A DNA stretch of 64,000 nt from Porphyromonas cangingivalis. Its GTDB lineage: Bacteria > Bacteroidota > Bacteroidia > Bacteroidales > Porphyromonadaceae. The position numbers and the translations under genes are program-made. A model generated the notes under the pieces. The model had not been told where the DNA came from. It did not search any database and saw nothing but the letters and a program-made list of their open reading frames with translations. The DNA lies in assembly GCF_900638305.1 (NCBI RefSeq), contig NZ_LR134506.1, positions 124,001 to 188,000 of the forward strand, in the 5' to 3' direction. This document shows positions 4,113-11,898 of the stretch, piece after piece. The stretch's first letter is position 1. Every line of letters begins with the position of its first letter.

Positions 4113-4571
4113 ATGGACTCAGCACGCAAATCCTCCGAAAAGAAGCAGTTTGAGCTAGACAAAAGGTATCTCCGTATGGCGATGATATGGGCGGAGAACT
4201 CTTACTGCGAACGCCTCAAGGTCGGAGCGCTCGTCATCAAAGACAATATGATCATCTCCGATGGTTATAACGGGACACCTTCGGGGTTCGAGAACATCTG
4301 TGAGGATGAGAACAACGTGACGAAACCGTATGTACTGCACGCAGAAGCCAATGCCATCACTAAGGTGGCCGCATCTTCCAACAACAGCACCGGGGCAACG
4401 ATCTATGTCACCAACGCACCTTGTATCGAGTGCTCCAAGTTGATTATCCAAGCAGGCATCAAGAGAGTCGTCTACAGTAAGGAATATAGACTTACCGATG
4501 GTTGTGATTTGCTCCGAAGGGCAGGTATTACTGTAGAGCACATCCCCCTTGATGATGCCGACATCAAGTAA
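4113..4571 (+). CDS. deoxycytidylate (dCMP) deaminase family protein
   Basis: A zinc-dependent deaminase of the ComEB/dCMP deaminase family, which converts dCMP to dUMP for thymidylate synthesis. The zinc site is visible: HAEAN with His76 and the catalytic Glu78, and PCIECSK with Cys104 and Cys107. GYNGTPSGFENICED is the substrate-loop motif typical of dCMP deaminases. Length is 152 residues. It sits between argS and an S41 protease on the same strand. A competence role, as for the Bacillus namesake comEB, is not implied. Confidence 0.9.
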   Translation: MDSARKSSEKKQFELDKRYLRMAMIWAENSYCERLKVGALVIKDNMIISDGYNGTPSGFENICEDENNVTKPYVLHAEANAITKVAASSNNSTGATIYVTNAPCIECSKLIIQAGIKRVVYSKEYRLTDGCDLLRRAGITVEHIPLDDADIK

Positions 4572-4619
4572 ATTATCGCAAACATCCGATCGTACCAAAT
4601 AAAACATGAACTCCTCCAA

Positions 4620-6317
4620 ATGAAATCAAAAAAAGTTCGCTACGCCTTATCAATTATCTTGCTGGTTGTGTTCAGCATGGGAGGTTACTTATTGGGAAGA
4701 TATGGTTCATCCTTTGGGAAGAGGAAGGACTTTTCGTTTCGGAAGCTCGAAGCTACGCTTGATCTCATAGACAAATATTATGTAGACAGCGTGTCCATCG
4801 ACTCGATTGTAAACAAGCTTGTTCCTGCAGTCTTTGAACAACTTGATCCACACTCATTCTATTTGACAGCAGAGCAACGCTCTCAAGAAAAAGAGTCTCT
4901 CGAAGGACACTTTTTTGGTATAGGGATCACTTTCAACAATATCAAGGATACCGTCATTGTCATCAATACCATCCCGAATGGTCCTTCTGATATCGCAGGT
5001 ATCAAGGCCGGCGACCGGATCATCGGGGTCGACTCGATTAACATTGCCGGACAGAACATCAAGGACGATTCTATCCGCAGTATCCTCAGAGGCCCTGATG
5101 AGAGTATTGTGTCGCTCAGTGTCTTCAGACCCAAAGACAATACGACCAATACCATCCAAGTACGGAGAGGGTCTGTGCCTATCCGTCAGATGGATGCAGC
5201 ATATATGATCAACGACACTCTTGGCTGCATTGCTTTCTCTCGTTTTACCATGAATACATACAACGAGTTCATCAAAGCCTATGCCGAACTCAAACTGAAA
5301 GGAATGAAAGGGCTCGTCTTGGACTTGCGAGATAATCCGGGAGGGGTTATGCACGCCGCACTTATGTTGAGCAACAGCTTTTTGGACAAAGGTGATCTCA
5401 TCATCTATACGGAGGGTAAGTCCGAGTCTCGCAATGATGTGTACAGTGATGGCACAGGAGTGATGAAGAAGTTGCCTTTATATGTCCTTATCAATGAAGA
5501 AAGTGCCTCTTCATCCGAGATTGTCAGCGGTGCACTCCAAGACAACGACAGAGCCATCATCATTGGTCGACGTTCGTTCGGTAAGGGACTTGTACAGCGT
5601 ACTTTCGATTACAACGATGGGTCTTCCCTTCACCTCACCATCTCCAGATATTACACCCCATCAGGCCGTAGCATCCAAAGAGAGTACAGCCTTGGTAAGG
5701 GACGCAGCTACCAGTATGACTGGTACGAGCGTCTGGCGAGAGGTGAATTCTTTCATGAGGATAGTATTCAGCACAAGGGGTTGGTGTATCAGACCGTAGG
5801 AGGTCGTAACGTCTATGGCGGTGGGGGGATCATCCCAGATGTCTTTGTGCCGAGGGATACGACCGGCTATACCGCATACTTCTCAGAAGTTGCATCCCAA
5901 GGGCTTATTCCCAAATTTGCTTTCCTTTACGCAGATAAACATAGAGACCTCCTTAACGGCTTTGGAGATGCTATTGCCTGCTATAGCTTCCTCAAAAATC
6001 AGGGGCTCATCTGGCAGTTTGCAAATTATGCCAATACTCAAGGGGTACGTGTCCGTAATTATCAGATCTACCTGTCTCAAAACCTCATATCAGACATCCT
6101 CTATAGTCTCATCATCTCCTATATATATGGCCAAGATGATGCCGCCAAGGTGAATGCATACAAAGATCCTATGATCATTAAGGCTGTCGATCTCTTCGGC
6201 CAACAGATCTATTCCCCCATGGATCTTGATAAGTATATCCGACCTGCCCAACAAGTCGTGAATGTCTCTCCGGCGGAAGACGAGAACACAGAGGATAATT
6301 CACAAGAAGAGGAGTAA
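4620..6317 (+). CDS. S41-family C-terminal processing peptidase (CtpA-like), membrane-anchored
   Basis: A serine peptidase of the tail-specific protease family acting in the periplasm. Residues 8-26 form an N-terminal membrane anchor or uncleaved signal. A PDZ domain follows (about 90-175, with FFGIGITFNN and GIKAGDRIIGVDS), then the catalytic fold (LVLDLRDNPGG). The Ser-Lys dyad can be assigned as Ser297 in ESASSSEI and Lys322 in RSFGKGLVQ. A C-terminal region of about 170 residues, ending in an acidic tail, is longer than in CtpA of other phyla, as is usual in Bacteroidota. The ATG lies 48 bases after the deaminase stop, and fthC follows after 9 bases. The substrate is unknown. Confidence 0.93.
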   Translation: MKSKKVRYALSIILLVVFSMGGYLLGRYGSSFGKRKDFSFRKLEATLDLIDKYYVDSVSIDSIVNKLVPAVFEQLDPHSFYLTAEQRSQEKESLEGHFFGIGITFNNIKDTVIVINTIPNGPSDIAGIKAGDRIIGVDSINIAGQNIKDDSIRSILRGPDESIVSLSVFRPKDNTTNTIQVRRGSVPIRQMDAAYMINDTLGCIAFSRFTMNTYNEFIKAYAELKLKGMKGLVLDLRDNPGGVMHAALMLSNSFLDKGDLIIYTEGKSESRNDVYSDGTGVMKKLPLYVLINEESASSSEIVSGALQDNDRAIIIGRRSFGKGLVQRTFDYNDGSSLHLTISRYYTPSGRSIQREYSLGKGRSYQYDWYERLARGEFFHEDSIQHKGLVYQTVGGRNVYGGGGIIPDVFVPRDTTGYTAYFSEVASQGLIPKFAFLYADKHRDLLNGFGDAIACYSFLKNQGLIWQFANYANTQGVRVRNYQIYLSQNLISDILYSLIISYIYGQDDAAKVNAYKDPMIIKAVDLFGQQIYSPMDLDKYIRPAQQVVNVSPAEDENTEDNSQEEE

Positions 6318-7041: not shown

Positions 7042-8202
7042 TTAGCCGAAGAAGCCGAGAAGGATACCTGCTGCGACAGCCGATCCGATGACTCCTGCAA
7101 CATTTGGACCCATCGCGTGCATGAGGAGGTAGTTGGACGGATCATATTCAAGACCCACAACTTGTGAGATACGTGCAGAGTCGGGGACGGCAGACACACC
7201 TGCGTTACCGATAAGAGGGTTGATCTTTTTGTCTTTGCGCAAGAATAGGTTCAAGAACTTAACAAAAAGAACGCCCGAGCACGTTGCGATCACGAACGAG
7301 AATGCTCCTAATATGAAGATCTTGATGGACGATGCTGTCAAGAACTCTGTCGCTTGTGTCGAAGCCCCTACTGTGAGCCCCAGCAATATCGTGATGACGT
7401 CGATGAGCGGACCGCGAGCAGTCTCTGCCAGACGACGTGTCACGCCACTCTCCTTGAGGAGATTACCGAAGAAGAGCATCCCGAGGAGTGGCAAACCCGA
7501 TGGCACGATGAATGTCGTCAAAAGTAGACCTACAATAGGGAATAGTATCTTCTCCTTCTGAGACACCAAACGTGGAGGCTTCATTTTGATGGTGCGCTCC
7601 TTCTTGGTTGTCAAGAGCTTCATAAATGGCGGTTGTATGATAGGTACAAGAGCCATATACGAATATGCGGATACTGCTATGGCACCCATAAGGTTGGGTG
7701 CGAGCTTGGACGACAAGAAGATCGCTGTCGGACCATCAGCTCCACCGATGATCCCGATCGCACCGGCTTGGTTCGGCTCAAAGCCGAGATACAGAGCTAC
7801 GATATAGGCAGCGAAGATCCCAAACTGAGCTGCTGCCCCGATGAGGATCAACTTTGGGTTCGAGATGAGAGCAGAGAAGTCTGTCATAGCCCCTATACCC
7901 AGGAAGATAAGAGGGGGGTACCAGCCTTGTTTGACACCTTGGTAGAGTATGTTGAGCACGGAGCCCTCTTCATATATACCGACTTGCAGGCCGGCATCTT
8001 TGAATGGGATGTTACCGATAAGCATACCGAAGCCGATCGGGATGAGGAGTAGGGGTTCGAACTCATACTTTATCCCAAGAAAGATGAACAAAAGCCCCAC
8101 CAAGAGCATCACAATATGTCCTGGTGTGGCGTTTGCAAAGCCGGTGTACGAAAGAAAGATCTCTAAGCTCTCTCCAAAAAATTGAAAGATACCAGCATCC
8201 AT
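7042..8202 (-). CDS. mmdB: methylmalonyl-CoA decarboxylase / oxaloacetate decarboxylase beta subunit (Na+ pump)
   Basis: Integral membrane subunit that decarboxylates carboxybiotin and couples it to sodium export. The protein is almost wholly hydrophobic with about 9-11 membrane segments. It carries the family motifs GGADGPTAIFLSSKLAP (containing the Asp implicated in Na+ coupling in this family), FFGNLLKESGVTRRLA and NPLIGNAGVSAVPDSAR. Length is 386 residues. It is the last gene of the order mce-mmdA-D-E-C-B, 7 bases after the biotin carrier. The carboxyltransferase and epimerase neighbours favour methylmalonyl-CoA over oxaloacetate as substrate; the beta subunit alone cannot tell them apart. 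Confidence 0.93.
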   Translation of the reverse strand: MDAGIFQFFGESLEIFLSYTGFANATPGHIVMLLVGLLFIFLGIKYEFEPLLLIPIGFGMLIGNIPFKDAGLQVGIYEEGSVLNILYQGVKQGWYPPLIFLGIGAMTDFSALISNPKLILIGAAAQFGIFAAYIVALYLGFEPNQAGAIGIIGGADGPTAIFLSSKLAPNLMGAIAVSAYSYMALVPIIQPPFMKLLTTKKERTIKMKPPRLVSQKEKILFPIVGLLLTTFIVPSGLPLLGMLFFGNLLKESGVTRRLAETARGPLIDVITILLGLTVGASTQATEFLTASSIKIFILGAFSFVIATCSGVLFVKFLNLFLRKDKKINPLIGNAGVSAVPDSARISQVVGLEYDPSNYLLMHAMGPNVAGVIGSAVAAGILLGFFG

Positions 8203-8209
8203 CTCTTAC

Positions 8210-8662
8210 TTAGCCAATAGTTACGAGGGTAGCACCTTCTTGGACGTTGTCTCCTTGAGAAACCGCGATCGAGGTTATGGTACCATCCCTGTCTGCCTTG
8301 ATGTCATTTTCCATCTTCATTGCCTCGAGGACAAGGATGCGCTGGCCTCTCTTGACTTCGTCACCCACCTTGCAGTGTACTCCGATGATGACTCCGGGGA
8401 GTGGTGATACCACCGGAGCACCGCTACCCCCTGCTGCAGGTGCTGCCGCTGCAGGTGCAGGAGCAGCTGCCGGCTTGGGAGTGGCTGTTGTGGTAGGACG
8501 GGATACAGGAGTAGGCTTAGGCATTTGCTTTACCTCTTGTTCTTTGTCGAGCTCCACCTTGTAAGTGCTCCCGTTGACTGTGACTTCTGCCACATTGCCT
8601 TCGATACTATTGATCTCCACACGGTATTTGATACCGTTGATGGTGTAGTTAAACTTTTTCAT
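8210..8662 (-). CDS. mmdC: biotin carboxyl carrier subunit
   Basis: Carries the carboxyl group between the carboxyltransferase and the membrane beta subunit. The C-terminal biotinyl domain has the LEAMKMEND motif, with Lys116 as the biotinylation site. An Ala/Pro-rich flexible linker spans about residues 48-80. The N-terminal segment (KFNYTINGIKYRVEI) is the small beta domain typical of this family. Length is 150 residues. Its position between mmdE and mmdB matches the Veillonella mmd gene order. Confidence 0.95.
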   Translation of the reverse strand: MKKFNYTINGIKYRVEINSIEGNVAEVTVNGSTYKVELDKEQEVKQMPKPTPVSRPTTTATPKPAAAPAPAAAAPAAGGSGAPVVSPLPGVIIGVHCKVGDEVKRGQRILVLEAMKMENDIKADRDGTITSIAVSQGDNVQEGATLVTIG

Positions 8663-8934: not shown

Positions 8935-9858
8935 TTATTTCTTAGGTGAGGGATTATGTGACTGTCTATGTCTCTGAGGACGTTCAGTGAGGGTGTGTAT
9001 CTTCGAACTCCAAGGAGAGTATCTTCTACGCACTCTGTCGATGGTGATCACCGTGCTCTCCTCGTCATGGAACGAGTTGGCATGCTGGTGAAGAGCCATT
9101 GCTATTGCAGCGTAGACGTCCCCAGGGATGTCGAGGGAAGCCTCTGCCTCCTCGTGTGATGCTCCCGCACTTACAGACTTCTTCTTCACCAACTTCACCG
9201 CTGTCCTTCCGATCATCTTGAAGATGATGTAGGCGACTATGAGTGAACTGAAAACGACGAGCATCGATATAAGTGTCGCTACGATACCACTTCTGTCGTG
9301 GGTCTTGAAGAACTCTGTGTTTCCTTGTGCTATGATGAGCTTGTTGTTGGCTTTTGGGGTAGGACTTTCAGATACTGTAAAGCTCCCTTTACCGTCTTCT
9401 GTCCTTGCGTAGCTTTCGTCAGCTCTCAATCCCGATGGGATGGTGACTTTGTCGATCAAGGTCTTCCCGTCAGAGTCAAAAAGGGCAAGGGTGCTCTCTT
9501 GCTCAGGATCAAGGACAACGCTTGCATGGAAGGTGCCACGCTCTTCTGCTCCATCCAGCCAGACGATCTTGTGTTGGCGAGGGGGGATGAGCGTCTCTCT
9601 GTCTCCACGAGGGATGGGATACTTGGTGGGCTTGGTGATGTCATCGGTGAGAAAGCATCCTCCAAGGTTGAGGGTCGCGGCGGAGGTGTTGTATATCTCC
9701 ACCCACGCACCTCTGTTGCCATATCCATCCATGATACTGCTTTCGTTGACAAGGAGCACTTCGTTGATGCGTAGCGAACGCACCGACTGAGCCCATGTCG
9801 ATAGCGAAAGCATCGACAGCACTAAGATGATACCCCAGTTGATGGTATTTCTTATCAT
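8935..9858 (-). CDS. MmdD/OadG-type subunit fused to an N-terminal lamin-tail domain
   Basis: A 307-residue protein with four visible parts. Residues 1-24 are a signal peptide (cleavage near WAQS). About 28-170 is a lamin-tail-domain-like beta fold (RINEVLLVNES, GAWVEIYNTSAATLNLGG, LALFDSDGKTLIDKV). Residues 191-217 form one membrane helix. Residues 243-296 are the OadG/MmdD-type cytoplasmic tail (DVYAAIAMAL, HDEES, RRRYSPWSSKI). Ordinary OadG/MmdD subunits are about 80-120 residues, so the periplasmic lamin-tail part is an addition. The tail should anchor the carboxyltransferase to the beta subunit. The role of the extracytoplasmic domain is unknown. Gaps of 12 bases to mmdA and zero to mmdE indicate one operon. 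Confidence 0.8.
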   Translation of the reverse strand: MIRNTINWGIILVLSMLSLSTWAQSVRSLRINEVLLVNESSIMDGYGNRGAWVEIYNTSAATLNLGGCFLTDDITKPTKYPIPRGDRETLIPPRQHKIVWLDGAEERGTFHASVVLDPEQESTLALFDSDGKTLIDKVTIPSGLRADESYARTEDGKGSFTVSESPTPKANNKLIIAQGNTEFFKTHDRSGIVATLISMLVVFSSLIVAYIIFKMIGRTAVKLVKKKSVSAGASHEEAEASLDIPGDVYAAIAMALHQHANSFHDEESTVITIDRVRRRYSPWSSKIHTLTERPQRHRQSHNPSPKK

Positions 9859-9870
9859 CTTCGTTTGAGA

Positions 9871-11424
9871 TTATAGAGGGATGTTGTCGTGCTTCTTCGC
9901 AGGGTTGGTCACCTTCTTTGTCTGTAGCTGGTTGAGTGCTCTGACAATGCGGAAACGTGTGTTGCGAGGTTCGATGACATCATCGATGTAACCATAAGAA
10001 GCCGCGTTGTAAGGATTTGCGAATGCTTCACGGTATTCAGCTTCTTTTTCGAGAGCTGCCTTGGCAGGATCTTCTGCATTGGCTACCTCCTTAGCAAAGA
10101 CCACTTCCACAGCACCGGCAGGGCCCATGACTGCGATCTCAGCCGAAGGCCAAGCGTAGTTGACATCACCACGGAGGTGCTTAGAGCTCATCACGATGTA
10201 AGCACCACCATAAGCCTTACGTAGGATGACGGTTACCTTAGGCACTGTTGCTTCGCCATAAGCATAGAGTAGCTTTGCACCGTGGGTGATCACACCGTTG
10301 TACTCCTGACCTGTGCCCGGAAGGAAGCCCGGTACATCGACGAGAGAAACGATGGGGATATTGAAGGCATCACAGAAGCGGATGAAGCGAGCACCCTTTC
10401 GAGATGCGTTACAGTCCAAGCTACCTGCCATCACACGAGGTTGGTTGGCTACGATACCTACTGACTGACCTCCAAATCTTGCGAAGCCGACGATGATGTT
10501 TTGAGCGTAGTCCTTGTGTACTTCGAGGAACTCCCCGTTGTCGATGATAGATCCGATGACTTCGTACATATCGTAAGCCTTGTTGGGGCTCTCAGGGATG
10601 ATTTCGTTGAGTGCATCATCGAGACGATCCACAGGGTCTGTGCACTCGTAGTAAGGAGCCTCTTCGAGGTTGTTTTGTGGGATGAAGCTGATGAGATGAC
10701 GGATGAGGTCGAGACCTTGTTGTTCGTCATCCACGGCAAAGTGAGCCACACCTGACTTTGTCGTGTGTACATCAGCACCACCGAGTTCTTCTTGAGTCAC
10801 ATCTTCATAAGTCACAGTCTTCACGACCTTAGGGCCTGTGAGGAACATATAGCTTGTCCCTCTGCACATGATGTTGAAGTCCGTGAGAGCAGGCGAATAT
10901 ACAGATCCTCCTGCACAAGGACCAAAGATCGCTGAGATCTGAGGAATGAGTCCCGAAGCAAGGATGTTGCGCTGGAAGATCTCTGCGTAACCCGCAAGGG
11001 CATTGACACCCTCTTGGATACGAGCACCACCCGAGTCATTGATACCGATGAGAGGTGCTCCCATCTTCATGGCCTGATCCATCACCTTACAGATCTTCAT
11101 TGCGTGCATTTCACCAAGAGCACCACCGAAGACGGTGAAGTCCTGAGCGAAGACATACACGAGACGGCCGTCGATGGTACCACTACCTGTGACGACACCA
11201 TCACCGAGGAACTTTGTCTTGTCCAGACCGAAATTGGACGAACGGTGCTGTACAAACATGTCTGTCTCCTCGAAGCTCCCTTCGTCAAGGAGCATCTGGA
11301 TACGTTCGCGGGCAGTGTGCTTGCCCTTTGCGTGCTGGCTGGCGATACGTTTTTCGCCACCACCCATGCGAGCTTGTGCTCTAAGATCTATGAGTTCTTT
11401 GATCTTTTCTACTTGTGTACTCAT
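9871..11424 (-). CDS. mmdA: methylmalonyl-CoA decarboxylase alpha subunit (carboxyltransferase)
   Basis: Transfers the carboxyl of (S)-methylmalonyl-CoA to biotin on MmdC, giving propionyl-CoA. The 517-residue protein has the two crotonase-like halves of acyl-CoA carboxyltransferases: the first with [19 protein letters not shown] and [16 protein letters not shown], the second with [17 protein letters not shown] and [13 protein letters not shown]. The family also includes propionyl-CoA carboxylase beta chains and glutaconyl-CoA decarboxylases. The adjacent beta, gamma and delta-like subunits and the epimerase make the sodium-pump decarboxylase the best call. Confidence 0.93.
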
Positions 11425-11481: not shown

Positions 11482-11898
11482 TTACTTCGCTTCTGTTGGA
11501 TGACAACAAAGTTCGGTAAGCACACTTCTCGTTGATTTAGGATGAAGGAAGGCGATATTGAGCCCTTCAGCACCCTTACGAGGATGGGCATCTATGAGGG
11601 ATACTCCTTTTTCTTCGCACTCTCTCAAAGATGATTCCACATCAGGTACTGCAAATGCGATGTGATGCACGCCTTCTCCCTTCTTTTCGATGAACTTAGC
11701 GATGGTGCTGTCCTCGGATGTGGGTTCGAGGAGTTCGATCTTGGTTCCTCCGACTTTGAAAAATGCCGTTTTCACCTTTTGGTCTTCAACTACTTCGATG
11801 TTGTAGCACTTTAGACCGAGTACGCCCTCATAGTAGGGTAGGGATTCTTCGATGCTTCTGACCGCAATCCCGAGGTGTTCGATGTGAGAAATGTTCAT
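11482..11898 (-). CDS. mce: methylmalonyl-CoA epimerase
   Basis: A VOC-fold metalloenzyme that interconverts (R)- and (S)-methylmalonyl-CoA. It links the B12-dependent mutase, which makes the R form, with the decarboxylase, which uses the S form. The 138-residue sequence has the typical start ISHIEHLGIAVRSIEESLPY with the metal His, KIELLEPTSEDS, GEGVHHIAFAV with a second His, and LNIAFLHPKS. It is the first gene of the decarboxylase operon, 57 bases before mmdA, with its own likely promoter upstream. Confidence 0.94.
   Translation of the reverse strand: MNISHIEHLGIAVRSIEESLPYYEGVLGLKCYNIEVVEDQKVKTAFFKVGGTKIELLEPTSEDSTIAKFIEKKGEGVHHIAFAVPDVESSLRECEEKGVSLIDAHPRKGAEGLNIAFLHPKSTRSVLTELCCHPTEAK

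Follow-up and report, generated by a model that had tools for sequence, protein, structure and literature searches.

A lamin-tail domain on the delta subunit of a predicted sodium-pump decarboxylase in Porphyromonas cangingivalis and other Bacteroidales

Biotin-dependent sodium pumps serve energy conservation in propionate-forming anaerobes. According to the structural study on the Salmonella OAD, the membrane part of this enzyme is a β3γ3 complex in which each γ subunit contributes one helix that lies at the rim against one β subunit, with residues 2–43 of γ resolved as a single helix that precedes a tail, and the C-terminal tail of γ is cytoplasmic and binds the α subunit (PMC7274780). The same study describes the γ/δ subunit as a stabilizer, and the solved example it presents bears no outer domain (PMC7274780). 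Closer to the organism considered here, the gene called oadG in Xylanibacter ruminicola is proposed to be the missing mmdD (PMC11575231); the word "lamin" does not occur in the main text of that paper.

How does the δ subunit of Porphyromonas cangingivalis compare with these examples? The window, i.e. the whole stretch of 64,000 nucleotides that was analyzed (contig NZ_LR134506.1, positions 124,001–188,000), encodes a δ-like subunit with an additional N-terminal lamin-tail domain (LTD), called LTD-MmdD in the following.

The protein and its operon

As read from the sequence, LTD-MmdD consists of a signal peptide, the LTD, a short linker, one helix and an OadG/MmdD tail (Table 1). This is the architecture a preliminary description had proposed, and the profile search it had called for did find LTD similarity: Pfam places the LTD (PF00932) at residues 27–140 with an E value of 3.8e-12 and 47 bits (cut-off 34.3), and OAD_gamma (PF04277) at residues 191–259 with an E value of 2.6e-10 and 41.3 bits (cut-off 27). 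In the alignment, conservation of the LTD region extends past the Pfam match to about residue 172, and the linker to the helix measures about 20 residues, with T167, P168, D188 and G191 invariant in 28 aligned fusions. Every 19-residue window with a mean hydropathy above 1.5 starts within residues 189–206. The hydrophobic core near the N-terminus, GIILVLSMLSLS from residue 9, is shorter than this helix stretch and is followed by TWA-Q, which by eye is read as a signal-peptidase site with cleavage after WA. The helix is directly followed on its C-terminal side by a basic region, which predicts a cytoplasmic tail; the positive-inside rule would thus put the LTD outside the inner membrane and the tail inside, as had also been supposed. 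Hydropathy and sequence fit what characterizes this kind of subunit, namely one helix, an N-terminus outside and a basic C-terminal tail inside, and by analogy to OadG the tail is expected to bind MmdA. The protein lies outside the narrower NCBIfam model oadG_fam (TIGR01195; 18.4 bits, cut-off 36.05), and no solved structure is related to the whole of it by sequence up to an E value of 1. DUF7299, which was considered for the tail, was rejected as its 16.8 bits are below the Pfam cut-off of 27. Taken together, LTD-MmdD is almost certainly a sodium-pump δ subunit bearing an LTD.

Table 1. Features of the δ subunit gene and neighboring pump genes in the window
Feature	Position	Strand	Basis
LTD-MmdD (δ subunit, N-terminal lamin-tail ectodomain)	8935..9858	(-)	307 aa, ATG start; ORF and Pfam
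Predicted signal peptide, residues 1-24	9787..9858	(-)	Hydrophobic core and cleavage site by eye
Lamin-tail domain, residues 27-140 (Pfam LTD)	9439..9780	(-)	Pfam, fold match, 28-row alignment
Single transmembrane helix (predicted), residues ~192-214	9217..9285	(-)	Hydropathy, AlphaFold2 model
Conserved tail, predicted cytoplasmic, residues 246-290 (AAIAMAL..HDEE..TI....YSPWSSKI)	8989..9123	(-)	Alignments
Methylmalonyl-CoA epimerase	11482..11898	(-)	TIGR03081, 152.8 bits, cut-off 114.95
MmdA, carboxyltransferase	9871..11424	(-)	Best model TIGR01117, 814.9 bits, cut-off 998.8 (below)
MmdE-like (epsilon) protein, 75 aa	8707..8934	(-)	δ-tail alignment
MmdC, biotin carrier	8210..8662	(-)	Biotin_lipoyl; EAMKMEN motif; NF047903 102.2 bits, cut-off 200 (below)
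MmdB, Na+-translocating carboxybiotin decarboxylase	7042..8202	(-)	OAD_beta 508.8 bits; TIGR01109 492.8 bits, cut-off 190.6

An AlphaFold2 model built from seven sequences has a mean pLDDT of 60.7. Blocks of ten residues between 51 and 150 score 74–87 with the exception of 101–110 (64), the blocks of the helix 66–74, and the cytoplasmic tail below 50; the model is therefore of fair quality in the LTD and of intermediate quality in the helix. The tail is poorly modeled, and no fold is claimed for it because of this low score. The top Foldseek match of the model, and the sole one with an E value below 0.001, is the tail of human lamin-B2 (8e-4). VIA yielded Z scores of 8.1–8.4 for four lamin A/B tail entries over 99–107 residues at 3.5–3.6 Å and of 9.2 for BT_1938 (4q1z), a DUF4876 protein, and the remaining lamin entries reached 6.1–7.9, values below 8 being such as may reflect a common arrangement alone. 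Matches to archaellum stator and pilin structures (Z about 5–6.4) were discarded as common arrangement and not kinship. The Pfam match and the modeled Ig-like lamin-tail fold both fit membership in the lamin-tail family.

The genes lie on one strand in the order epimerase-MmdA-[LTD-MmdD]-MmdE-like-MmdC-MmdB, so that LTD-MmdD is found together with the decarboxylase α subunit, the biotin carrier and the β subunit; the neighboring genes thereby bear out the assignment to a sodium-pump decarboxylase made in the preliminary description. MmdB exceeds the TIGR01109 cut-off, as fits a Na+-translocating β subunit. The substrate of the pump is most likely methylmalonyl-CoA because of the neighboring epimerase and the best model for MmdA, with TIGR01195, TIGR01117 and NF047903 all scoring below their cut-offs. 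The 75-residue protein encoded 3' of LTD-MmdD aligns with the C-terminal tail of LTD-MmdD, and thus constitutes a second copy of the tail devoid of helix and signal peptide; it was also matched in searches with LTD-MmdD as query and reaches the cut-off of no Pfam or NCBIfam family, DNA_pack_C (12.9 bits, Pfam cut-off 22.8) having been rejected on this ground. In Veillonella, MmdE is a small protein homologous to the C-terminal tail of δ, and by its sequence the 75-residue protein looks like such an ε subunit. Similar frames of 57–80 residues are found 3' of the δ gene in other Porphyromonadaceae.

Spread and variants in the Bacteroidales

A profile made from 28 fusions was run over 392 Bacteroidales genomes of at least 90% completeness. 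Full-length matches comprising LTD and OadG were found in 113 of them, OAD_beta in 314 and a δ-type tail in 311, in some cases through an ε-like tail alone (e.g. G002). Of the δ classes, the full-length fusion is the one counted over the order, the lists of matches being incomplete for the others. The fusion is common in Bacteroidales, neither unique nor universal. Recurrence of the full-length arrangement in so many genomes rules out chance or a misread frame as well as a fusion peculiar to the window genome, and a reading of the fusion as special to this genome is not supported; equally, the opposite concern that it might be universal and already described is not borne out, as this survey and the open-access literature, where no report was found, indicate. 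That known γ/δ subunits lack a large periplasmic part, as had been stated, holds for the solved Salmonella subunit, but does not hold for Bacteroidales. Among the matches listed, OAD_beta resides on the same contig at a distance of at most 4 kb in all 76 fusions for which its position is given, i.e. in at least 76 of the 113. No internal stop is present in 94 of the 113 matches and one stop is listed in 19; in one of the latter (L056 in genome G298) the frame is intact and encodes 315 residues, so the match probably runs past the end stop.

Of 296 genomes drawn from the whole phylum, 81 contain OAD_gamma, and outside the order nearly all OAD_gamma frames are 59–204 residues long, too short for the fusion; two are longer, with 454 (G122) and 416 residues (G301). 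The closest named relative, L002, is from a Porphyromonas MAG and 80% identical in the best segment. Six of the 12 genomes of the window's genus contain OAD_beta and the same six contain the LTD-bearing δ subunit, whereas the other six, among them one genome of 53% completeness (G011), contain neither and all keep MmdA; LTD-δ therefore travels with the pump. Two loci from genomes of the same genus (L038, 196–2958; L039, 3841–6561) retain epimerase, MmdA, a 60-residue ε protein and MmdC and have no δ gene there, and OAD_beta is absent from the entire genomes. This gene set may be a soluble remnant acting as carboxylase or transcarboxylase.

The neighborhoods of 46 loci (26 plus 20) were read, which were chosen by hand, those devoid of an LTD deliberately, so that the following class counts are not frequencies. 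The δ subunit is fused to an LTD in 22 loci, divided into LTD and OadG in two overlapping frames in one (L046), reduced to a signal-peptide-like start and a helix in front of the tail in seven (L040–L045, L063), provided with another ectodomain in four (L062, L068, L073, L077), bare, i.e. by eye devoid of ectodomain and clear signal peptide, in ten, and absent in two (L038, L039). MmdC and MmdB follow δ in all 44 loci that have it, and MmdA directly precedes it in 42. The two exceptions, L069 (5070–7685) and L070 (3296–5931), comprise δ, MmdC and MmdB, with δ subunits that carry an LTD according to the fusion profile. At least two of the 22 LTD-class subunits score below the Pfam LTD cut-off of 34.3 bits (L069, 26.9; L071, 33.1). 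In the divided gene (4392–5341) the frames overlap by 16 bases, which could reflect either a true division of the gene or an error in sequencing.

Other domains are found in the place of the LTD. The δ ectodomains of L062 (2459–3412) and L068 (4888–5844) match choice_anch_I (PF22494) above the cut-off with E values of 6e-14 and 2e-12, covering profile positions 19–162 of 489, about one third of the domain; a comparison of the L068 protein with solved structures yielded weak, scattered matches, the best with an E value of 0.006. The ectodomains of L073 (3666–4664) and L077 (5816–6820) comprise about 170 residues and match no Pfam family above the cut-off. Below the NCBIfam cut-offs, the one of L077 shows a propeller-like match (E 0.0025) and the first residues of L073 an FtsL-like match (E 6e-5). 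Five loci with bare δ subunits (L058–L061, L072) have an N-terminal extension on MmdB; in L061 (5311–6936) MmdB is 541 residues long; it begins with a signal-peptide-like segment and has about 150 additional N-terminal residues, which gave weak, lipocalin-like matches below the cut-off. Moreover, in L064, L065, L066, L067 and L074, from lineages with bare δ subunits, MmdB has a longer loop after GNIP.

History and possible role of the lamin-tail domain

A tree of MmdB was calculated by a quick method from 44 rows, one for the window and the rest for 43 of the 46 loci, and leaves 13 of 41 inner branches open; L005, with two MmdB copies, and L038 and L039, without MmdB, were left out, and the divided L046 was scored as LTD-bearing. 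Presence and absence of the LTD on this tree need at least six changes. The LTD-less δ subunits of Porphyromonadaceae fall into two groups starred on the tree, one of which includes L046, as if the LTD had first been cut off and then lost. If never regained, the LTD would thus have been lost at least twice in Porphyromonadaceae, signal peptide and helix being kept. A second tree compared 42 δ LTDs with 20 other LTDs from Bacteroidales. A branch with 97% SH-aLRT support separates the δ LTDs, which span 18 family codes and include a long branch (L071), from all the others; this tree has no fixed root, and the search profile, made from δ LTDs, favors those other LTDs most similar to them. Such an unrooted grouping is as expected for, and no proof of, a single acquisition of the LTD early in Bacteroidales, which we infer. 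LTDs are also found on other, mostly larger frames in Bacteroidales genomes among the matches listed. Comparison with the one relative L002 gives a dN/dS of 0.06 for the LTD, at a dS of 1.9 that is near saturation, and the cytoplasmic part has much the same value (0.06).

How could a lamin-tail domain serve a sodium pump? By homology with OadG, the δ helix would lie against MmdB and the cytoplasmic tail on MmdA, and δ would thereby anchor MmdA to MmdB. The signal peptide would direct export of the LTD, and the linker of about 20 residues would keep it close to the outer side of the inner membrane, so that three LTDs on such linkers would surround the MmdB trimer. It could be imagined that the LTD forms an accessory periplasmic cap that stabilizes or spaces the MmdB3-MmdD3 assembly, perhaps through contacts that link neighboring δ chains or reach the outer side of MmdB. 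We favor this cap tentatively, giving it somewhat less than an even chance. Against it speak that the γ helices of Salmonella lie at the rim of the β trimer so that three LTDs need not touch, that the LTD might instead contact some other component of the periplasm, and that it was lost repeatedly and has other domains in its place. The LTD is not catalytic or strictly required, since some lineages have dispensed with it and others have a different domain at its position.

Alternatively, the LTD might tether the pump to peptidoglycan or another envelope protein, or sense the envelope. LTDs on the other frames of the order and the different ectodomains that some lineages have at this position would be consistent with such a role, but the short linker with its invariant residues is better suited to docking close by than to spanning a distance, and no peptidoglycan-binding family is among the Pfam matches up to an E value of 0.1. 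Moreover, the MmdB tree implies at least two losses of the LTD, and some lineages that kept the pump genes have other ectodomains in its place; the pump is therefore unlikely to depend strictly on such a tether or sensor, and we consider this role unlikely altogether. It could also be that the ectodomain is a folding handle for export and assembly that orients δ with its N-terminus outside and brings it together with MmdB; any small domain would then suffice. The signal-peptide-like start retained in LTD-less δ subunits of Porphyromonadaceae and the unrelated domains of L062, L068, L073 and L077 agree with a handle; however, complete operons of other lineages contain δ subunits without clear signal peptide, and the LTD is under constraint, as judged from one pair, unlike a mere filler, which makes this possibility a doubtful one.

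A bolder idea is that of an exchangeable crown on the outer face of the pump, to which each δ chain would contribute an LTD, about one third of a β-propeller (choice-of-anchor I) or another domain, or MmdB its own ectodomain; three δ subunits could then close one propeller or one ring of LTDs above the β trimer and couple assembly to the periplasm. We regard this as quite improbable. That the LTD is a neutral passenger of an old fusion would accord with its repeated loss on the MmdB tree but is very unlikely given its dN/dS of about 0.06 against one relative, the 113 of 392 genomes that retain it and the 18 family codes covered by the δ rows of the LTD tree. Natural losses and swaps among relatives make the role of the LTD directly testable by natural variants or by deletion, in an order in which nearly three in ten sampled genomes encode a conserved extracytoplasmic domain on the δ subunit.

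Comparison with known decarboxylases and lamin-tail proteins

LTD-MmdD resembles OadG/MmdD in its single helix, its C-terminal tail on the predicted cytoplasmic side and its operon with carboxyltransferase, biotin carrier and β subunit, and differs from them by about 165 additional residues after the signal peptide, including the LTD. The oadG gene of Xylanibacter ruminicola likewise encodes a proposed δ subunit and shares an operon with mmdB and mmdC (PMC11575231), and L069 and L070 resemble this arrangement in that no MmdA adjoins δ. In the open-access literature, with subscription papers mostly outside the scope of the search, no report was found of an LTD joined with MmdD/OadG or with methylmalonyl-CoA decarboxylase. 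A known subunit is here present in a variant form, real and conserved, that is common among Bacteroidales and on which that literature yielded no report.

Among lamin-tail proteins, ExeM, reportedly a secreted bacterial nuclease that carries an LTD, offers the nearest parallel. ExeM-like secreted proteins and LTD-MmdD share an extracytoplasmic LTD, predicted in the latter, that is joined to another domain, and the LTDs of δ subunits group apart from the 20 other LTDs of the order, a comparison set that does not include ExeM. ExeM, however, is a secreted enzyme, whereas LTD-MmdD is a membrane-bound subunit of a pump.
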